A program made the translations under genes and the position numbers. This document shows, one piece after another, positions 18,134 through 34,275 of a stretch of 49,884 nt of DNA. Positions within the stretch are counted from its first letter, which is position 1; each line of letters opens with the position of its first letter. The notes beneath the pieces are model-generated. The model was not told where the DNA came from and searched no databases. It saw nothing but the letters and a program-made list of their open reading frames with translations. This stretch comes from Ignavibacterium sp. (GTDB taxonomy: Bacteria > Zixibacteria > MSB-5A5 > GN15 > PGXB01): contig DYGG01000023.1 of the NCBI GenBank assembly GCA_020724775.1, positions 1-49,884 of the forward strand, given 5' to 3'.

Positions 18134-18391
18134 ATGAGAACAATCATTGAAGAGTCTCGTTTTACGCAAGAACTGTCATTAATCGAATCTGATGCAAAAA
18201 GAGCGGACGAATTCATTGATGGTGCGAAATATATATTATCACGTAATCCAGAATTTGGAAATTGTATTGGGGATAACTCAAATGTCTGGACCCTTGCTTT
18301 AGTCGAAATTCACGATCACCCCCCTTTAGTTTTATATTATACTTTTGATGACTCTCGCGTGTGGTTTTTATCAATTATTATTAGCCAATAG
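18134..18391 (+). CDS. putative toxin partner of the Panacea antitoxin (RelE/ParE-like size)
   Basis: An 85-residue protein starting six bases after the antitoxin stop. The reading frame MRTIIEESRFTQELSLIES...RADEFIDGAKYILSRNPEFG...VWTLALVEIHDHPPLVLYYTFDDSRVWFLSI has the helix-helix-beta order and length of RelE/ParE superfamily toxins, with the usual late strands containing LYYTFD and VWFLSI. That family call is tentative because key residues differ among members. Its 3' end overlaps the 3' end of the transposase gene on the other strand by 11 bases. Toxin status rests on the position after a Panacea gene. Confidence 0.7.
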   Translation: MRTIIEESRFTQELSLIESDAKRADEFIDGAKYILSRNPEFGNCIGDNSNVWTLALVEIHDHPPLVLYYTFDDSRVWFLSIIISQ

Positions 18392-19241
18392 CCTTAGAGT
18401 TGTCTTTAATCTCTTCAGATTCCAATAGAGTCACGATATCTCCAACATTCCATAGTTTGTGTGTTATCCCCGCAGCCATAGCCGGAGTTATCCTTAAAGT
18501 CTGGTGTATCCGGCAGAAATTGTAATACATAAAATGTAGAGCAACCGCATACTCAAGATTCTGAATTTTCTTGGAAAAGGCATTAGTCAACCGGGTGAAT
18601 CGGCGCATGTTCATGCGCATGGTAAGATTCTGACGCTCAATGAGACTTGTAGATACATTTTCCTTTTTGGGTTTACCAATCAGAGATTTTCTTCGAGCCC
18701 CAATACAATTGGGGGGGCTATACCTTCCTTCCTGTCCTTTTTCTCGTCCATATAGTTTAACCAGCATCGCATAATCAATTTTGCAACCAAAGGCCTCGTC
18801 AACGGCCTCAAGATAGGCGCTATGGCCGTCTGTGGTCAATTGAATTTTATTGGATAAGCGCTCGGCCAGATCATTCATAAATATCTTCGCATGTTCAGCG
18901 TTGCGCAGTCCAACATACCAAGAGACAATCAATTTAGATTCGGGGTCAAGAGCTGTCCAAGTCCAAACATCACCATAGCCAAATTGCCCGTACTTATCTT
19001 TAGGAACATTTTTCTGTTTGGCATAACAGTAAGACCAGATTTCATCGCATTGAATCTGTTTACAATTCAGATTGCGTAAGGTCTTGTCTTGATATTCAGC
19101 ACAAATTGACCCAACTTCGGCCAGCAATTTGACAACCGTATTCTTGGCAATACCGGTCATACGAACGGTCGACCGAATGGAGTTTCCTTCTATTAAGGCA
19201 CCTATAATGCGAATCCGCTGTTCTTTGCTTAATTTATTCAT
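18381..19241 (-). CDS. IS1-family transposase, single reading frame
   Basis: A 286-residue DDE transposase. An N-terminal helix-turn-helix (SIRSTVRMTGIAKNTVVKLLAEVG) is followed by the catalytic core: Asp66 in QCDEIWSYCYAKQ, Asp137 in TTDGHSAYLEAV and Glu201 in LIERQNLTMRMNMRRFTRL, ending with HFMYYNFCRIHQTL. This order is characteristic of the frameshift-free IS1 subgroup. No zinc finger is present at the N-terminus. The core is complete, so the element may be active. The gene is convergent with the toxin gene, 3' ends overlapping. The promoter lies so close to the start codon that the transcript may be leaderless. Confidence 0.92.
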   Translation of the reverse strand: MNKLSKEQRIRIIGALIEGNSIRSTVRMTGIAKNTVVKLLAEVGSICAEYQDKTLRNLNCKQIQCDEIWSYCYAKQKNVPKDKYGQFGYGDVWTWTALDPESKLIVSWYVGLRNAEHAKIFMNDLAERLSNKIQLTTDGHSAYLEAVDEAFGCKIDYAMLVKLYGREKGQEGRYSPPNCIGARRKSLIGKPKKENVSTSLIERQNLTMRMNMRRFTRLTNAFSKKIQNLEYAVALHFMYYNFCRIHQTLRITPAMAAGITHKLWNVGDIVTLLESEEIKDNSKAIG

Positions 19242-25349: not shown

Positions 25350-25525
25350 AGTGTTTCATTACTTCCTTCCTTGCTTCAAGAACATCAATCGCAGCCACGG
25401 TAGTCTAACCAGTCGCATTCGGCGACCGAGGGCTGAACGCGCATCCGAGCACGGCCGTGCGAATCTGCTGAGCAATCATTCTCCTACTCGGGGTGAATTG
25501 AACACGGGCCGCACGGAAAGATTCA

Positions 25526-25554
25526 TTGACGTGCTCTGATACGCTTACTATATT
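25526..25554 (+). promoter_or_regulatory. promoter of the membrane C25-like gene
   Basis: TTGACG (25526-25531), 17 bases, TATATT (25549-25554), 44 bases before the ATG; GGAGGGG precedes the ATG. Confidence 0.6.
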
Positions 25555-25598
25555 GGCATTGCTAACAAAATCCACTGACGATTACTCTGGAGGGGAAT

Positions 25599-27812
25599 AT
25601 GCTGTTCAGTTGGAATTTTCGGGGATCTCTCTGGTGCCTGATTATCGTTTTGATAATTGGGCCTTGCGCCAACTCAAAAGACTCAACGATGCTGGTAGCC
25701 ACCAGCTGGCAGAATTATCTGCGGCTGGTGCCGGTGAGCCTGCATGACGGCTATACGCCGTTGCTTTTTTCGGATGATATCGGCCCAGACCGCGCTATCA
25801 CTCAATTCAGTCGTTTTTACCCCGCCTCTTATAAGAGTCTCTTATCAAAAGACGTAGACAGCGCAATCGAGGCAACCTGGCCGAAGTTGTCACGGGCAGT
25901 CATTTGCACGGAATCGATAGGTTTGGGAATATTTGGAGCCGTTATTGCGGCAAGACTTGACGCTCCCCTATTTTTCACCGAGGACTCATTGTTTCCTGAA
26001 TTTGGGGTTCCTGATGACTCTCTGGTGATTATAGGGGCCGACATTCGCGAGGCAACAAAGGGCATCGTCTTAAAGGATAGTATATCTGCGGCAGCATTCC
26101 ACAACAGTCTGGCAGAAAACCGCACAATTGCTGTGTTGTGCGAAAGCGCTAACTGGGCATTCTTGGCAGCGGAGATAGCCGCTTACCATAAATGCCCCTT
26201 AATACTTGATAGGAATGAGATAAGGGTCTTGAAGCCGAAATTGCTGGCGTGGGTGGTTGACCACGGCAGCGTAAGCATTTCAAATGTGAAAGACCTTTAC
26301 AACTACTGCACCTTCACCCCAGGCTCTTTGGTTCCTGACGTAGCAATAGGAATTGTTACCGGTTTGGATGCCACCGATGTTTCACTCATGCTGGCCAGGA
26401 CATATACATATCACTTGATGACGGGTGAATGGAAATCAAAGGGAATCATTGCATCGATCGATATTTCTTCCGAAGTGGAGCCCACATCTTCGGTCCCGAT
26501 GGAGATATACCGCGCCGATGGCAACGATTTGACTTTGAACTTCCTGGACAACTATCTGCCGCAAGTATGTTACACCTATATCTGCGCGCATGGTTCTCAA
26601 TCGCGTTTGGTCCTGAGAAACGGTGAGTTGGAAAGTCAGCACTTCAAATTGCGGTTGGCGCCACAAGTTTTTGTGGCAGAGGCGTGTATGACGGGCGATA
26701 TCGCGGGCGGCTCATACCAGAGCAGCATAGCCCTCGGCATGATAAGTTCCGGCGCCAGTGCCTTTATCGGTTCAATGGTGATAGGGGGTCCGAGCCCTTT
26801 ATTCAGTTATCCCTTCTTACACTCGACGCCTTCGGTTCCACTTGCAGAGCACGTACGGCTCGCCAACGCAATGAGGCTTGATTTTGATGCGACCTGGTCG
26901 CGCGGCATTCTGATTGGGGAACCATCCTTTCATCAGTTCGAGGACGAGTTCTACGACGTAAAGACTTATCTGGAGGATGGCCAACTGTCGGCGGAAATCA
27001 CACCCCGCTCGGACACCGGTATGGCATCATTGGTGATTGAACTACCATCCGGTACTGACGTCAAGTATATAGTGGCAGATACAGGTGGTGGCATTATCAG
27101 GAAATATATCCGCGGTCCTGCTCCCTGGCATTCGCCCTTCAGTTATGCCTCCTCCGGCGAGGCGGTCAAAATCATGCTGGAATGGCCCGGCGGGAAAGGC
27201 CGTCTGAGATTTTACGAAAGCAGACCATTCTACGCGCCACTTCTGTATCTTATCTCGTACGTTGCCACGGGTCTTGGTATAGTCTTCTTTGACATAGTCG
27301 CGAATCCCGATTTCTCCCCCTGGTTTGTCGTCTCAATTATGTTGCTCTTTGTGCTGCTCTATTATCTTAAGCGCTGGTTGAAGGAAAAATGGCTGCTGGT
27401 TGTGCTTGCGGCGGCTTCAATCGGGTCCGCGCTGCTTTCAATGCTTATTTCCTTCTATTATTTGAGCCAGCCTGATTTCTACTTGGCTTTCTTGTTCATT
27501 GCCGGGACGATTATTACTTTGTCGCCGTTTTTGTCAAAAATCCGACGGTTGAGGAATCGAATATTTGCTGCGGTATCCTTTGCGGGAGTCCCCGTTTTTG
27601 CAAGTCTATTCCTTTTGATTATGACAGGGTCAATGAAAGTATTCCTGATGGCATTGAGCGCAAGCATATCGGTTGGCTTGTGCTATTTCCTCTTGCTCAC
27701 TCTGCTGGTTAGACTGATGTACAAGTCGGAGAAAAGCAGGCAGGTGTTTCCTCCCGTTGAAAACAGCAGGGAGGGTGTCAGCGAAGATATCAAAACTCAG
27801 GAAGGTTCTTGA
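25599..27812 (+). CDS. membrane protein with gingipain-like (C25, clan CD) His/Cys dyad
   Basis: A 737-residue protein. An N-terminal hydrophobic signal or anchor (10-23) is followed by a 520-residue outside domain. Residues 98-150 alternate strands and helices (AVICTESIGLGIFGAVIAARLDAPLFF...LVIIGADIRE), somewhat like cell-wall-binding-2 domains. A caspase-fold-like segment follows: His331 in YICAHGSQSRL and Cys363 in VFVAEACMTGD, then SSIALGMISSGASAFIGSM. The 32-residue His-Cys spacing and the order match gingipain C25 peptidases. The C-terminal 170 residues contain about six membrane helices (547-706) and a hydrophilic tail. Protease activity is inferred from motifs. Partners and function are unknown. 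Confidence 0.65.
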   Translation: MLFSWNFRGSLWCLIIVLIIGPCANSKDSTMLVATSWQNYLRLVPVSLHDGYTPLLFSDDIGPDRAITQFSRFYPASYKSLLSKDVDSAIEATWPKLSRAVICTESIGLGIFGAVIAARLDAPLFFTEDSLFPEFGVPDDSLVIIGADIREATKGIVLKDSISAAAFHNSLAENRTIAVLCESANWAFLAAEIAAYHKCPLILDRNEIRVLKPKLLAWVVDHGSVSISNVKDLYNYCTFTPGSLVPDVAIGIVTGLDATDVSLMLARTYTYHLMTGEWKSKGIIASIDISSEVEPTSSVPMEIYRADGNDLTLNFLDNYLPQVCYTYICAHGSQSRLVLRNGELESQHFKLRLAPQVFVAEACMTGDIAGGSYQSSIALGMISSGASAFIGSMVIGGPSPLFSYPFLHSTPSVPLAEHVRLANAMRLDFDATWSRGILIGEPSFHQFEDEFYDVKTYLEDGQLSAEITPRSDTGMASLVIELPSGTDVKYIVADTGGGIIRKYIRGPAPWHSPFSYASSGEAVKIMLEWPGGKGRLRFYESRPFYAPLLYLISYVATGLGIVFFDIVANPDFSPWFVVSIMLLFVLLYYLKRWLKEKWLLVVLAAASIGSALLSMLISFYYLSQPDFYLAFLFIAGTIITLSPFLSKIRRLRNRIFAAVSFAGVPVFASLFLLIMTGSMKVFLMALSASISVGLCYFLLLTLLVRLMYKSEKSRQVFPPVENSREGVSEDIKTQEGS

Positions 27813-27919
27813 CTGATGATTAGAAAATATTCTTTCACTCGGTATTCAAAAACTTATATTGATGGCGCAACGGATTTCACAATTCAACATATTTTGAAAG
27901 TACTTCAGAGGAGGTGTGC

Positions 27920-28315
27920 GTGGAACAAAGCACGGCTACTTGCGGCCGAATTCGTCATCCCCTGGCACCGTTTGGGCTGGGGCTGATAACTCTCGGCGTT
28001 TATAGTCTGGTATGGATGTACAAAATCCTGGAAGAGATGCGCCGTCATGCGAATAATTACTCCATAACATCAGGAGGGGCGGCAGTCGGATTTCTCTTCC
28101 TGCCGATATTTAATATCTTCTGGGCAATCTACTTGTGGTTTAGAATACCGACCTGCGTGAACAGGATGAAAGGTGACTGCAACACCGAGAACGGCCGCTT
28201 GAATGCCGCCATAGGGTTGGTAAACCTGATTCCTATAATCGGCTATATAATCTGGTCGGCTCTCATCCAATCATCGCTGAATGACCACTGGAGAGCGCAC
28301 GGTCAACGAGTATAA
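27920..28315 (+). CDS. DUF4234 membrane protein
   Basis: GTG at 27920 has GAGGAGG at five bases and is preferred over the GTG at 27914 that overlaps that site. A 131-residue protein: RHPLAPFGLGLITLGVYSLVWMYKILEEMRRHAN is the DUF4234 signature (T-G-Y-x2-W-x-Y). Three or four hydrophobic segments follow, with the final N-x-HWRAHG. Members are small inner-membrane proteins of unknown function. It sits 107 bases after the C25-like gene and may share its transcript. Confidence 0.85.
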   Translation: MEQSTATCGRIRHPLAPFGLGLITLGVYSLVWMYKILEEMRRHANNYSITSGGAAVGFLFLPIFNIFWAIYLWFRIPTCVNRMKGDCNTENGRLNAAIGLVNLIPIIGYIIWSALIQSSLNDHWRAHGQRV

Positions 28316-28380
28316 GGCTTCATGTGCAGGTTAGAGATGCTGCTTTTATGTCATCTCTTCTCATTTAATGGTCCGGGGGT

Positions 28381-28416
28381 AAAATAAAACGGGGCGGAAC
28401 AACAGTTCCGACCCGT
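28381..28416 (-). terminator. terminator of the secreted dockerin protein gene
   Basis: On the minus strand, ACGGGTCGGAAC pairs with GTTCCGCCCCGT (12 bp, one mismatch), followed by TTTATTTT. Confidence 0.85.
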
Positions 28417-28441
28417 TACCGCTTGGTTATATTTCATCGAA

Positions 28442-30586
28442 TCAATAGCAGGGTTCCGGTCCCTGGCTGTAGAAATAGCGAATGGCGTAAATAATGTCGC
28501 TGATGCCGATTTCACTGTCGCAGTTGGCATCGACGCGATAGGCGCCGCCGACCGGGGCGGTTCCTTTCTTATAGATAAAGTTTATGAGATAGAGAACATC
28601 TCCGATATTCCCCACCCCGTTGCCGTCGTAATCCCCTTTAAGATAAGACTGACAGACAAAACGAGTCAGACTGGTCGCCATACCGATTCGCCCGGTGGCG
28701 TCGGTCGCCGTGGCGGTAATGAAATACAGCGAATCGGAAACCATATTGGAGGCGCTCCAATCATAACTCCAGCCTCCGACAGAACTGGCGTCAAGCCCGA
28801 CCAGGTCGCGCGTCACGGTATGATTATACCCGGCAACGGTGAAAATCATATCGACCGGATGCCAGGAATTTCCGTAGTAGACTTCGGCTCCATTGAGGCC
28901 GTCACGCATATAGAGGCTGGCATTGATGCCGGTCAGCGGGTCGGACATGGTTGTCATATAGCGCCCCTGACCGTCGGCAAGTCCCAGCACCCCTGATGCC
29001 ACCAGATAGAGTCCCGGTGTTCCGGAAAGGGCCAGTATCACGACCAACTCCCGCTCCTGAAACAGAGTGCGGAAGGTATGATATGAGGGCTGACGATAGA
29101 CATTGAAAAGAAGTTCGTTGCCGTGGGTCAGAATATACTGCTGCATGCCGTTGAGGAACAGGTCATCATAAGTTCCCTTATTGGCGCGCGTCTGCATAGT
29201 CGCCGCAAGCCGCTCCACCAGGGTATCCACCGAGATATAATTGACACCTTCCCGCATGCAGTAGATATACCCTTTATCAAACCAGTATTTTATGGCGATT
29301 GCTCCGGCGACCGGGCCGCAGTAATAATCGCCGAATTCCCCCGAGGCGCGATGATTGCCGTCATTGGGGTCGCCGTCAATATCGCCGTACCGCGACTGGT
29401 TAAGAAGCGGCATAGTGACGCCGTAGTTGGTGGCGGCCGCTTTCTTGTCGAAACGAACCTGGGTGACATTTTCATCGGCGGTGGTGATTTCCAGTTTAAG
29501 CGGATGACAGATGCTGTCGTACGGTGTCGGATTTATCAGATTAACGTCGGGTGGAGTCGGGTCTATTGTCACCTGATGCGAATCGACGTCACTGCGCCCC
29601 AGAGTGTCTTCGACATAAGCCCGCATCCAGTACAACCCCTCGGTAAGAGAACTATAATTAAACAGTAGAGAGTAGCCGTTGCCTGAGCCCGAAGTATCTA
29701 CCCCGTTGCGCCAGGGACGATTGCCGCTGTTGTCCTGACCGATAGTCGTCCAGGCGCCTCCGGAGCTGCGCCGGTCAAAGCGGACAAAGTCGATAATCCG
29801 GCTGCCGGCCGTTTCTGACGCCCAGAGAGTCAGAGGTCCGATGACTATTTCATTGTTTTTCGGCTGAAGCAGAGTGATTGACGGCGCCGGCTGAACTCCC
29901 CCGCTGCCGCCGGTGGTGCCGACCGAAAATAAAATGAGACGTCCCGGAAAGTCAAAATAGTCATTATTAGCCAGGTCAATATACCCTATGGTGGTATCCC
30001 AGATATTATATCCGGTGCAAAGAGCCGTCAGGCTATCGGTCACCACGCAGGCGCCTTTGGATGAATCGATGGCGTTGGAGATATAGAATCCGGCGAAATA
30101 AGGTCCATTGACCGCCACGGCGGAATCAAGCGGGACTGCCAGCAAATAGAGTCCCTGTCCCGGAATGACATACATCCACTCCGAAGAGATAGAAAGAAGA
30201 TTGCCGGGGACGGGGCATGACGGCACCGTCAAGTCGGCCGTTTCCACATCGACCGAGACAATGAGGGTGCAGAGCCGGTTGAAAAACATAACGATATCGA
30301 CTTCTTCGACCATAAAGGGATAAGGGGCGGTGCAGGACTGAGAGGGGTCCTGGTAAGATTTATAGAGTTCCATACCGGTAACCCAGTGTTGAATCAGCCA
30401 GTACGGTCCGAGGTCGTGGCGCACCGAGCAGATTTCAGCGGAAGCAAAACGGGGCGCCAGCGAAAGATTTTCGATACTGAAATCGGTAAGCGGCGTCACC
30501 GAGGCGCTTCTCTTAGAATCGAATCCGGCCGCTGCGGAAACAATCAGAAGGCATACTGATATCATCAGGATAGGTTTTCGGAACAT
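28442..30586 (-). CDS. secreted protein with Ig-like, C39-like and dockerin-type domains
   Basis: Start at 30586 with AAGGAG at seven bases; the frame runs 52 codons further without support. 714 residues with a signal peptide (MFRKPILMISVCLLIVSAAAG). Residues 230-350 contain an Ig-like region (SITLLQPKNNEIVIGPLTLWAS...WMRAYVEDTLGRSDVDSHQVTIDPTPP). A segment resembling peptidase C39/papain-like folds follows (QSRYGD...YYCGPVAGAIAIKYW, with the Cys as possible nucleophile). The C-terminus (about 645-714) has two dockerin-like Ca-binding repeats (GDYDGNGVGNIGDVLYLINFIY, VDANCDSEIGISDIIYAIRYFY). Dockerin-like ends are common in this lineage without known cohesins. It is probably surface-exposed or released; function unknown. 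Confidence 0.8.
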   Translation of the reverse strand: MFRKPILMISVCLLIVSAAAGFDSKRSASVTPLTDFSIENLSLAPRFASAEICSVRHDLGPYWLIQHWVTGMELYKSYQDPSQSCTAPYPFMVEEVDIVMFFNRLCTLIVSVDVETADLTVPSCPVPGNLLSISSEWMYVIPGQGLYLLAVPLDSAVAVNGPYFAGFYISNAIDSSKGACVVTDSLTALCTGYNIWDTTIGYIDLANNDYFDFPGRLILFSVGTTGGSGGVQPAPSITLLQPKNNEIVIGPLTLWASETAGSRIIDFVRFDRRSSGGAWTTIGQDNSGNRPWRNGVDTSGSGNGYSLLFNYSSLTEGLYWMRAYVEDTLGRSDVDSHQVTIDPTPPDVNLINPTPYDSICHPLKLEITTADENVTQVRFDKKAAATNYGVTMPLLNQSRYGDIDGDPNDGNHRASGEFGDYYCGPVAGAIAIKYWFDKGYIYCMREGVNYISVDTLVERLAATMQTRANKGTYDDLFLNGMQQYILTHGNELLFNVYRQPSYHTFRTLFQERELVVILALSGTPGLYLVASGVLGLADGQGRYMTTMSDPLTGINASLYMRDGLNGAEVYYGNSWHPVDMIFTVAGYNHTVTRDLVGLDASSVGGWSYDWSASNMVSDSLYFITATATDATGRIGMATSLTRFVCQSYLKGDYDGNGVGNIGDVLYLINFIYKKGTAPVGGAYRVDANCDSEIGISDIIYAIRYFYSQGPEPCY

Positions 30587-30660
30587 CGAAAACTCCTTTT
30601 TTCGATAAAAAATGTTTCTTCTACTTGATATCGATTGATTTTGCCGTAACTTAACCGGAT

Positions 30661-31596
30661 ATGAGCGGAGAGGATTTCGAAAGAAAGACGGGCGACAGGC
30701 GCTGTTCAAAATCTGCGCAACCGGCAGAAAGCCCCTTGCCATTAAGCCCGCGCCGCAAACCGGACTGGCTTAAAGTGCGCGCCGGAGGGGGGAAGCGCTT
30801 CCACGAGGTCGAGGCGCTTCTAAAGGAATATCATCTCGACACCGTCTGCCGTGAAGCCAACTGCCCCAATCGCGGCGAGTGCTATTCACAGGGAACGGCG
30901 ACTTTTCTCATTATGGGTCCCCACTGCGCCCGCAACTGCCGTTTCTGCAATGTCACGCACGGACCGCCGCAGCCGCTCGACCTGGAAGAGCCGTCAAATA
31001 TCGCTCGCGCCGTATCGATTCTGGGACTTCGTCACGCCGTAATAACCTCCGTTACCCGCGATGACCTTGCCGATGGCGGCGCCGCTCACTTCGCCGAAGT
31101 GATCAAATCAATTCGCGCTCTTAAGAGAGATGTCACCGTGGAAGTCCTGACGCCCGATTTCAAAGGCGACCTTGAGGCTCTCGAAATTGTGCTGGCGCAA
31201 CGTCCCGATGTCTTCAACCATAATGTCGAGACTGTTCCCCGGCTCTATCGGCAGGTTCGTCCACTGGCTGATTACAGCCGCTCCCTGACGATATTGAAAG
31301 CGGCCTCCGGGCGGGAGGGAATTCTGGTCAAATCCGGAATCATGCTCGGCTTAGGCGAAGATGAAAAAGAACTGCAGGAACTCTTTATTGACTTGCGCCA
31401 ACAGGGGGTGCAATTATTGACCATCGGGCAATATCTGGCGCCTTCCCGCAATCATATTCCCGTGGCAAGATATTACTCTCCGGCGGAGTTCGGAAATATT
31501 GCCGCTCTTGCCCGTCACAGCGGTATAAAAGAAGTTTTTGCCGGACCGCTGGTTCGCTCCTCCTATCATGCGGCGGAGCAGTTTTACGCCCAATAG
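30661..31596 (+). CDS. lipA: lipoyl synthase
   Basis: A 311-residue radical-SAM enzyme. The auxiliary cluster CX4CX5C (Cys63, Cys68, Cys74 in CREANCPNRGEC) and the radical-SAM CX3CX2C (Cys89, Cys93, Cys96 in CARNCRFC) are both present, as are the C-terminal RSSY Ser ligand and TSVTRDDL. It inserts two sulfurs into octanoyl chains on lipoyl carrier domains of 2-oxoacid dehydrogenases and the glycine cleavage system. The N-terminal 30 residues are extra and weakly conserved, so the start may lie a little downstream. It is divergent from the dockerin gene with 74 bases between starts. No lipB is next to it. Confidence 0.97.
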   Translation: MSGEDFERKTGDRRCSKSAQPAESPLPLSPRRKPDWLKVRAGGGKRFHEVEALLKEYHLDTVCREANCPNRGECYSQGTATFLIMGPHCARNCRFCNVTHGPPQPLDLEEPSNIARAVSILGLRHAVITSVTRDDLADGGAAHFAEVIKSIRALKRDVTVEVLTPDFKGDLEALEIVLAQRPDVFNHNVETVPRLYRQVRPLADYSRSLTILKAASGREGILVKSGIMLGLGEDEKELQELFIDLRQQGVQLLTIGQYLAPSRNHIPVARYYSPAEFGNIAALARHSGIKEVFAGPLVRSSYHAAEQFYAQ

Positions 31597-31745: not shown

Positions 31746-33230
31746 ATGAGAGAGATAATAATCATAGATGACGAGCAGTATATCGGCAATATAATCCGGG
31801 AAGCCTTAAGCGAGTTTCGCGATTTCCGGATTCATAATTTCACCGACCCGGCGCAGGCGGAAGATTTTATTGCAAAGAACGGCGTTGACCTGGTTTTAAC
31901 CGACCTGGTAATGGGGAATTATTCCGGAGTTCATATTCTCGAAACCACTCTGGCAAATCACCCCGACGCCATCGTCATTCTTATGACCGGCTACCCGACC
32001 GTTAAGACCGCCATTGCGGTTCTCAAAAAGGGCGGCTACGATTATCTGATCAAACCGTTCAAACTGGAGGACCTCAAGTCGGCAATCAAAAGAGGGCTGG
32101 AGCATCAGAGTGTGCGGCGGGAGAATGTCGCCCTGCGCAGTCAGATTGAACTGATGAAGGTCGCCGATGCCCATGGTCACGGGATGAAACTGCATCCATT
32201 CTTGAAACTTATCATCGATTCCACGGTCAAAGTGATACCGGCTGAATTTTCGGCTATTCTGCTGCGGGACCGCCTTACGCAAAAATACAATCTCCAGTGC
32301 TCCCAGATGCGTGAGGGGGAATGGTCCTGGTCTTTCTCGCCAAACGCCGCATTGAAGCTCCCCGAAGGGGATAAAATAGGGCTGGAGCCGACATATATAA
32401 ATGATGAATTCAGGTTTGAAGAGCAGCAGTATAAGCGCTCTATCATATATTATCCGCTGATGTCGCGTGGAGAGACGCTGGGAATTCTGGTGGTTACATA
32501 TGTTGACCGCTTCAATCATATCAGCCCGGGGCAGTTGCGACTGATTTCGCTTCTGGCGGCATCTGCCGCGAACGCTGTTGACAGCGGACGTCAGGAGCGG
32601 AATCTCCGCAAATCGTACCTGATGACTATCCGCGCCCTAGCCAATGCGGTGGAAGCGCGGGATATCTGCACGGCGGGACATACCGACCGAGTCTTTCGTC
32701 TGGTGCGGGTCATTGCCCGTAAACTCGGCTGGGATAAAGAGCGGCTGGGATACCTCAAGACCGGCTGTATTCTGCACGATATCGGAAAAATCGGAGTTCC
32801 CGATGCCATCCTGAACAAGCCGGGAGAGTTAACCGCCGAGGAAAGAAAGACGATGGAAAAGCACCCGGAACTCGGCATGAGGATATTAGCCGGCATTCCC
32901 AGCCTGGAGCCGGTTCTGCCTTATATAATCTCGCATCACGAGCGATACGACGGAAAAGGGTATCCGTACGGCCTCAAAGGGGAAGATATTCCAATCGAAG
33001 GACGTCTTCTGGCGGTGGTCGATACCTTTGACGCTATCCTCTCCAATCGCCCTTATCGCCAGGGGACCGATGCCGAAGCGGCGGTGGCGGAGATTTTGAA
33101 AAATCGCGGGACACAGTTTGACCCGATGTTAGTTGACCTGTTTATGGAGGCGTATCGGGAGGGGAAGATTGCCGCGGTTACGTCTAACGGACGGGAGAAG
33201 AGAAGCGCTGTCTCGCTCAATCCAGTATAA
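31746..33230 (+). CDS. response regulator with GAF-like and HD-GYP output (cyclic-di-GMP phosphodiesterase)
   Basis: A 494-residue protein. A receiver domain (1-120; DDE pocket, Asp53 phospho-acceptor, KPF) is followed by a GAF-like middle region (about 145-280) and a complete HD-GYP domain (about 290-470). The metal-binding HD is in ILHDIGKIGVP near 343, and HHERYDGKGYPYGLKGEDIP contains the GYP motif. The domain hydrolyses the second messenger cyclic-di-GMP to GMP in proven members. Its kinase partner is not in the window. It overlaps the 3' end of the convergent M50 protease gene by 14 bases. Confidence 0.94.
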   Translation: MREIIIIDDEQYIGNIIREALSEFRDFRIHNFTDPAQAEDFIAKNGVDLVLTDLVMGNYSGVHILETTLANHPDAIVILMTGYPTVKTAIAVLKKGGYDYLIKPFKLEDLKSAIKRGLEHQSVRRENVALRSQIELMKVADAHGHGMKLHPFLKLIIDSTVKVIPAEFSAILLRDRLTQKYNLQCSQMREGEWSWSFSPNAALKLPEGDKIGLEPTYINDEFRFEEQQYKRSIIYYPLMSRGETLGILVVTYVDRFNHISPGQLRLISLLAASAANAVDSGRQERNLRKSYLMTIRALANAVEARDICTAGHTDRVFRLVRVIARKLGWDKERLGYLKTGCILHDIGKIGVPDAILNKPGELTAEERKTMEKHPELGMRILAGIPSLEPVLPYIISHHERYDGKGYPYGLKGEDIPIEGRLLAVVDTFDAILSNRPYRQGTDAEAAVAEILKNRGTQFDPMLVDLFMEAYREGKIAAVTSNGREKRSAVSLNPV

Positions 33231-34275
33231 ATGGCGCCGGGACAAAACTGACAACAAAAATAAATATGGCGATAAAAGCCATTGCCCGCGCCGTACCGGT
33301 CAGTTTCTGGCTGTCATTATAGGTGGGGGGATGATTAATCCCGAACAGAAAAACCAGCGCCCCAAAAAACCACCAGCCGGGCCACCAGAAACCGAGCACC
33401 ATCATAACGATCAGAAAGAACCGTCCGATCTGGTGCTGACGGCTCCCCAGCAGACCATATAGAATATGCCCGCCGTCAAGTTGCCCGAGCAGGAGAAGAT
33501 TTATCATCGTCACCAGAAGCCCGACCCATCCGGCGAAAGCGGCCGGCGACAGCATGAAATCGTATCCTTCCGGTATCGGACCGATTATCAGCCAGGAGAG
33601 AAGTTTTATCAGCAGCGAATCGCCCAACCGCATCCCTCCTTCAAAATCGGGAGGAATGATTTCTGACCGACTCAACCCGACAGCGATGGCAATCACGGAA
33701 ATCACAAATCCGGCAATCGGACCGGCGGCGCCGACCTCAATCAGGTCGCGACGGTTGGTGAAGGGGGATTTCGATTTGATGACCGCGCCAAAAGTCCCGA
33801 CAATGTTCGGCGCCGGAATAAAATAAGGCAGAGACATAAAGACTCCCCGTCGGCGGCCCGCCAGGTAGTGTCCAAACTCGTGAAAAAGAAGTATCGCCAT
33901 CAAAGCGATGGTGAATTCGGCCCGTTCCTGAACTACCCCGGGGCGGTCGAAATAATGGAAATCAAGCGAGAGAAGCGCCGGCGCCAGAAACATAGTAACA
34001 AGGGTCGCCAGAAAGAGAATGATATTTAGAACCGGAAGGCGGACTTTTTTGGCCTGGCGAACGGCAATCAGAATGCCGTTGGCATCCTCGCGGACATTTG
34101 CCGTGAAGCCGACATTATTGAGCCGCCGATGCAGAAGCGAGAAAGCCTCTTCCCTGCCGATAAGAGGCTTGGCGCGCAGTATCAGCCGCCCGTCATGAAA
34201 ATAGATTGCCGATATCTCATAAATGTCGGAGAGTTGGTAATATATGGCGCGCGAAGTCTGTTCCGGGTTATGCAT
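33217..34275 (-). CDS. site-2 protease family (M50) membrane metallopeptidase
   Basis: A 352-residue protein. A soluble N-terminal domain of 80 residues is followed by about seven membrane segments. Zinc motif HEFGH at 132-136 (LLFHEFGHYLAG) and the third ligand Asp267 in LLLGQLDGGH, the LDG motif of the family. No PDZ domain is present. The plan with a long N-terminal domain and FIPAPNIVGTFGAVI is that of EGY1/RseP-distant S2P proteins, which cut membrane-bound regulators within the lipid bilayer. Substrate unknown. Ribosome-binding site not evident. Confidence 0.9.
   Translation of the reverse strand: MHNPEQTSRAIYYQLSDIYEISAIYFHDGRLILRAKPLIGREEAFSLLHRRLNNVGFTANVREDANGILIAVRQAKKVRLPVLNIILFLATLVTMFLAPALLSLDFHYFDRPGVVQERAEFTIALMAILLFHEFGHYLAGRRRGVFMSLPYFIPAPNIVGTFGAVIKSKSPFTNRRDLIEVGAAGPIAGFVISVIAIAVGLSRSEIIPPDFEGGMRLGDSLLIKLLSWLIIGPIPEGYDFMLSPAAFAGWVGLLVTMINLLLLGQLDGGHILYGLLGSRQHQIGRFFLIVMMVLGFWWPGWWFFGALVFLFGINHPPTYNDSQKLTGTARAMAFIAIFIFVVSFVPAPFILD

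Follow-up and report, generated by a model that had tools for sequence, protein, structure and literature searches.

The window, by which we mean the whole stretch of 49,884 nucleotides analyzed here, encodes a divergent homologue of the C25 cysteine peptidases (clan CD) in which the C25 domain is followed by a polytopic membrane domain. We consider it fairly probable that this protein is an accessory C25 cysteine peptidase, exported and tethered on the periplasmic side by its C-terminal polytopic domain, which would cut substrates near the inner membrane and is not a housekeeping part of the type IX secretion system (T9SS). Sequence comparison is what brings out the C25 homology, the conserved His/Cys dyad, the membrane domain and the patchy distribution of the gene.

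C25 peptidases are familiar as secreted and surface proteins, and fusion of such a domain to a conserved polytopic one would place C25 chemistry at the inner membrane, outside T9SS. The catalytic domain itself is a divergent member of an already known family. An accessory gene that joins a C25 domain to a conserved polytopic membrane anchor, and does so outside T9SS, might represent a new fusion: the accessible portions of the open-access literature on C25, gingipains, PorU and RgpB yielded no polytopic C25 protein, a weak negative, and type IX secretion combined with Zixibacteria gave no match in the open-access literature.

Gene and domain layout

The features of the gene and its surroundings are collected in Table 1. 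A GGAGGGG sequence lies immediately 5' of the ATG, and the promoter candidate further upstream is a weak one, as the region holds six such sites against a mean of 3.6 in shuffled sequences. Rfam gave no match. The second part of the C25 domain terminates in IGEPSF, at the position of the family's GDP motif, which reads GEP in both the window protein and its orthologue. The six hydrophobic segments (residues 549-567, 572-590, 599-617, 627-645, 655-673 and 686-704) are followed by a tail of 33 residues that ends the protein.

Table 1. Positions in the window of the C25-like gene, its parts and its neighbors
Feature	Coordinates	Strand	Basis
Accessory block, 3089 bp, between flanks common to genome G001	25351..28439	.	
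Sigma-70-like promoter candidate TTGACG-17-TATATT, weak	25526..25554	+	
ORF, membrane-anchored C25-like protein, 737 aa	25599..27812	+	open reading frame and Pfam
N-terminal hydrophobic signal-like segment, residues 1-24 (orthologue has one too)	25599..25670	+	
N-terminal alpha/beta region, residues about 26-168	25674..26102	+	
C25 domain, N-terminal (first) part, residues 170-240	26106..26318	+	
C25 domain, second (caspase-like) part carrying the dyad, residues 245-445	26331..26933	+	
His331 codon, aligned with RgpB chain position 211	26589..26591	+	
Cys363 codon, aligned with RgpB chain position 244	26685..26687	+	
Predicted beta domain, residues 450-540, block pLDDT about 41-67	26946..27218	+	model
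Six hydrophobic segments, residues 545-709	27231..27725	+	hydropathy
DUF4234 membrane protein, same accessory block	27914..28315	+	

Internal repetition was found ahead of the dyad-bearing part. Residues 95-168 resemble residues 170-240 (score 20.4 against a shuffle maximum of 14.5, reached by 0 of 100 shuffles), and residues 26-94 resemble residues 95-168 (score 19.5, above 100 of 100 shuffles, maximum 15.1); no excess likeness was found between residues 26-94 and 170-240, for which 58 of 100 shuffles equalled the score. The impression by eye that the N-terminal repeats are cell-wall-binding repeat 2 was rejected, there being no Pfam match, and PF04122 supplied zero sequences in 46 genomes for comparison with them.

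Homology to C25 peptidases

Against the whole protein, Pfam PF01364 scored 20.5 bits (E 3.1e-4, residues 236-400), under its curated cut-off of 23 bits; against the fragment 26301-27101 it scored 23.0 bits (E 5.4e-5). The orthologue, found in genome G011, had no Pfam C25 match, and because of this and of the whole-protein score below the cut-off, Pfam alone is insufficient for a C25 assignment. The PF01364 genome search likewise did not list the window gene in its own genome, so equally divergent proteins can escape that route.

Profile comparison gave a clearer result. An ectodomain profile built from the window protein and its orthologue matched 24 C25 domains of the phylum with an hhalign score of 55.0 (E 9.7e-7), against 20.6 for the best of 100 column shuffles and 13.1 for the reversed profile. 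The earlier note had singled out His331 and Cys363, 32 residues apart, as a gingipain-like dyad in C25-like surroundings, and this description stands, since both residues fall on the family His and Cys in the hhalign profile alignment and align with RgpB (Table 1). In a MAFFT alignment of 42 sequences, the window protein included, the Cys363 column is Cys in 42 of 42 rows and the His331 column His in 41 of 42. The profile of the C25 alignment, dominated by the 40 other C25 rows, matches RgpB (5.2e-76) as well as Kgp and PorU, and the dyad lines up in these matches. Conservation of the dyad, proposed in the earlier note as a check, was confirmed in the sole orthologue found (31% identity), which keeps the pair, its 32-residue spacing and the membrane domain; the His-Gly pair is also kept in both proteins. 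After the vG motif, 40 of the 42 C25 rows have an Arg, a position at which the window protein and its orthologue both have Ile.

Structure prediction, the other check proposed for the fold, returned the clan-CD architecture. The model of residues 165-545 (pLDDT 74, pTM 0.71) would contain the two-part, caspase-like C25 fold, although 40 of its 42 input rows were other C25 domains, by which the fold was partly guided. Its best Foldseek matches were Kgp (E 3.3e-10) and RgpB (about 2e-8), and VIA superposed it on RgpB with a Z of 22.6 over 263 residues at 2.9 Å, identity to RgpB and Kgp over the structural alignment being about 13%. Other folds scored lower by VIA (separases 14.5, DdvA 12.8, CHAT proteases about 12, PorU 9.8). 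A two-row model of the full protein was unusable (pLDDT 35.5). We conclude that the protein, as judged from its sequence and the model, is a divergent C25 homologue, for which the dyad is not the sole support.

Whether such a domain would still cut peptide bonds is a separate matter, and the conserved Cys and His suggest that it may well be catalytically active. The alternative is that the C25 fold is dead as an enzyme, or serves as a sensor, and passes signals across the membrane, as might the clan-CD-like region of the transmembrane anti-sigma factor DdvA. DdvA (8rot) does appear among the structural matches (VIA Z 12.8, as above; Foldseek E 6.7e-4), and the conserved Arg has been lost specifically in this family. 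Both Foldseek and VIA, however, rank the gingipains far above DdvA, and the dyad, its exact spacing, the His-Gly pair and the Cys are retained across proteins of only 31% identity, so that we regard a dead or sensor fold as distinctly unlikely.

Membrane domain and topology

The C-terminal multi-helix membrane domain described in the earlier note was recovered, with two refinements to its count of six helices. Six hydrophobic segments are present in the window protein and the same six in the orthologue, where the first scores only 1.38 by hydropathy and five score at least 1.8. Lys and Arg are concentrated in loop 2-3 (4), loop 4-5 (5) and the first 15 residues of the tail (4), against 0, 0 and 1 in the remaining loops. 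If the catalytic domain is exported, these charges fit an odd number of spans and favor five over six, with the first segment interfacial or re-entrant. The hydrophobic segments in themselves suggest an inner-membrane anchor, and the catalytic domain would then lie in the periplasm.

The opposite topology, in which the catalytic domain is cytoplasmic, all six segments truly span the membrane and the first helix is N-out, has to be weighed here. If all six segments span the membrane and the positive-inside rule applies, the Lys/Arg-rich loops 2-3 and 4-5 and the tail come to lie on the same side as the catalytic domain, which would be cytoplasmic. This arrangement is at odds with the signal-like N-terminus, where a positive charge precedes the hydrophobic stretch in both the window protein and its orthologue, and with the low score of the first C-terminal segment in the orthologue, with which five spans fit. 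Characterized C25 peptidases are, moreover, exported. We therefore regard a cytoplasmic catalytic domain as unlikely and retain the exported, periplasmically tethered enzyme as the preferred reading.

The earlier note had also considered a polytopic anchor unusual for C25 proteins, and the loci examined agree. The phylum supplied 51 other C25 loci for comparison (9 of whose ORFs were cut at the 3' end of the fetched DNA); one raw case had at least two hydrophobic segments behind the C25 domain, and this was rejected as an artefact spanning masked bases; the sample is uneven, as 31 of the 51 come from the window's own genome and the strongest PF01364 matches, mostly of one PorU-length type. At locus L138 (G055:C1), a single ORF joins a C25 protein that has a sorting-tail-like end to a transporter-like end across masked bases, and looks like a product of the masking.

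Distribution and relation to type IX secretion

The family is rare. A two-row profile found it in 2 of 132 genomes of the phylum, namely the window's own and G011, which belongs to the same taxonomic family but another genus. A wider search of 386 genomes, those two included, found no third member: besides the two genuine ones it returned 22 weak rows, spread over 21 genomes, and among the 14 of these that were inspected, L071 and L072 were C25 proteins without a membrane anchor and the remainder included no C25 protein with the anchored architecture. Over 290 genomes, a three-row core profile retrieved nothing but other C25 proteins. Eight genomes of one further phylum held no member, an uninformative sample, and scans of genome, viral and plasmid contigs found no relative, although these used short peptide patterns or a single-sequence search, from which absence is not implied.

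These counts bear on the suggestion, made in the earlier note, that the protein acts in secretion or surface sorting as a processing protease comparable to PorU, for which comparison with the distribution of T9SS genes had been proposed. SprA_N, a domain of the T9SS translocon, occurs in 77 of 80 genomes of the phylum and PF01364 in 129 of 129; set against 2 of 132, this indicates that the gene is decoupled from T9SS. Being rare and variably present among close relatives, it is also an unlikely core component of the secretion machinery.

A PorU-like enzyme of T9SS or surface sorting does have points in its favor, namely the C25 kinship with PorU and the presence in the window's own genome of SprA_N (G000:C75:19975-21213) and of two strong C25 proteins, one of them PorU-like in length. 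A strong C25 protein of about 1300 residues, however, already fits PorU in most of the same genomes (the PorU name being one that we infer), and the structural Z to PorU lies far under that to RgpB. PorU has an extra conserved Arg according to PMC4560394; at the corresponding position, about 32 residues after the Cys, the window protein has Val and the orthologue Glu, and Arg is present in 19 of the 42 rows, among them the PorU-length L001, L008 and L022. Pfam found no Por_Secre_tail match in the window protein. The compartment would differ as well, since an inner-membrane location is proposed here and PorU is described in PMC5445135 as lying at the cell surface, presumably held there by PorV. 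Taken together, these results make a PorU-like role very improbable, and finding a gingipain-like dyad where the genome bears a T9SS does not by itself imply T9SS membership. By eye, the C-terminus of the phylum C25 protein L001 resembles a sorting tail.

Accessory location, gain and loss

The second genome of the window's genus, G001, has a 58-bp spacer in place of the accessory block, between flanks 89-90% identical to those of the window. The DUF4234 gene of the block was not found in the orthologue-bearing G011 and is thus no obligate partner. In G011, the orthologue sits between ompA and a Big_5 gene; in G014, which is congeneric with it, the same neighbors are separated by a 188-bp spacer and the gene is absent. 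In the window's own genome (G000:C15), ompA and the Big_5 gene lie about 74 bp apart with no such gene between them, and in G001 matching pieces of the locus lie on one contig with a spacing as short as in G000. Since the locus is empty in G014 and G000, the simplest account is that the orthologue was gained in G011, where its site bears no relation to that of the window gene.

For the window copy, the flanking genes are adjacent, among the genomes examined, only in both genomes of its genus, so that this copy cannot be polarized as a gain or a loss. It was probably acquired horizontally. The GC content of the gene (0.496; GC3 0.566) is at the low end, yet within the range, of 15 other ORFs, by which a foreign origin is not proven, and no flanking repeats or mobile-element ends marking an insertion were found at the block. 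Each genus thus offers a pair of genomes, with and without the gene, for asking its role.

Several neighboring ORFs in the window may be recorded. About 6 kb from the block, 18381-19241 (-) shows weak IS1/IS240-type transposase matches (E about 1.5e-4, below the cut-off). The 766-residue protein at 28442-30742 (-) has a weak dockerin match, and its stretch GEFGDYYCGPVAGAIAIKYW looks cysteine-peptidase-like by eye. An M50 (site-2-type) membrane protease is encoded at 33217-34275 (-), about 5 kb downstream and outside the accessory block.

The patchy occurrence at unrelated sites in two genera is what might be expected of a conflict or defense gene, that is, an accessory envelope protease directed against foreign proteins or triggering cell damage. 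No PADLOC model, however, matches the protein or its neighbor (4 proteins), and the flanks are metabolic or envelope genes with no conserved partner; we give this idea little credence. A bolder proposal, also unlikely in our judgment, is a mobile, self-contained membrane enzyme in which the gingipain-type domain and the helical membrane domain function as a unit, the latter presenting membrane-protein substrates to a periplasmic Cys/His center or gating their access to it. Such an enzyme would be the clan-CD equivalent of the site-1 type membrane proteases and would have spread from lineage to lineage for inter-bacterial conflict or envelope signaling.

For the tethered accessory peptidase that we prefer, the following sequence of events can be envisaged, in which we infer the substrate and the role of the N-terminal region. 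The N-terminal signal sequence would export the C25 catalytic domain through the inner membrane, on whose periplasmic face the C-terminal polytopic domain would hold it. The N-terminal 140 residues may serve as a pro-region or in substrate binding, and the tethered Cys/His endopeptidase would most likely cleave, near the inner membrane, substrates that are periplasmic or membrane proteins. The gene would be gained and lost between close relatives, outside the T9SS housekeeping set.

Comparison with known systems

A resemblance in the context of the Cys is offered by three short C25-like proteins of other genomes, L071, L095 and L096 (G232, G307 and G160), whose Cys stands in a SEACYGA or TEACYGA context; they share with the window protein the EAC surroundings and, in part, an S-x-A...GA..FVGS stretch after the Cys. 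They differ in being about 340-380 residues long, with no membrane domain seen in the ORFs inspected. No obvious signal sequence was seen in these ORFs either, and they are possibly leaderless, single-domain C25 proteins.

DdvA, a transmembrane anti-sigma factor (PDB 8rot), is, going by its title and the fold scores, likewise a membrane protein with a clan-CD-like fold region. Its structural match to the window protein is far weaker than that of the gingipains, and no anti-sigma part was recognized in the window protein.

PorU shares the C25-type domain and the same dyad. PorU has the extra Arg (PMC4560394) and belongs to a widespread system, whereas the window protein has neither this Arg nor a sorting tail and occurs in just the two genomes.

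The gingipains RgpB and Kgp carry a T9SS sorting tail where the window protein has membrane helices. In RgpB, the S1 residues that bind the P1 Arg are Asp163, Gln282 and Trp284, according to PMC4357240, and inspection of the C25 alignments by eye showed no evident counterpart of them; neither the S1 residues nor the conserved Arg are kept in the window protein. Nevertheless, the gingipains remain its best fold matches, with a two-part C25 domain, the His and Cys in register, and a beta domain behind it.
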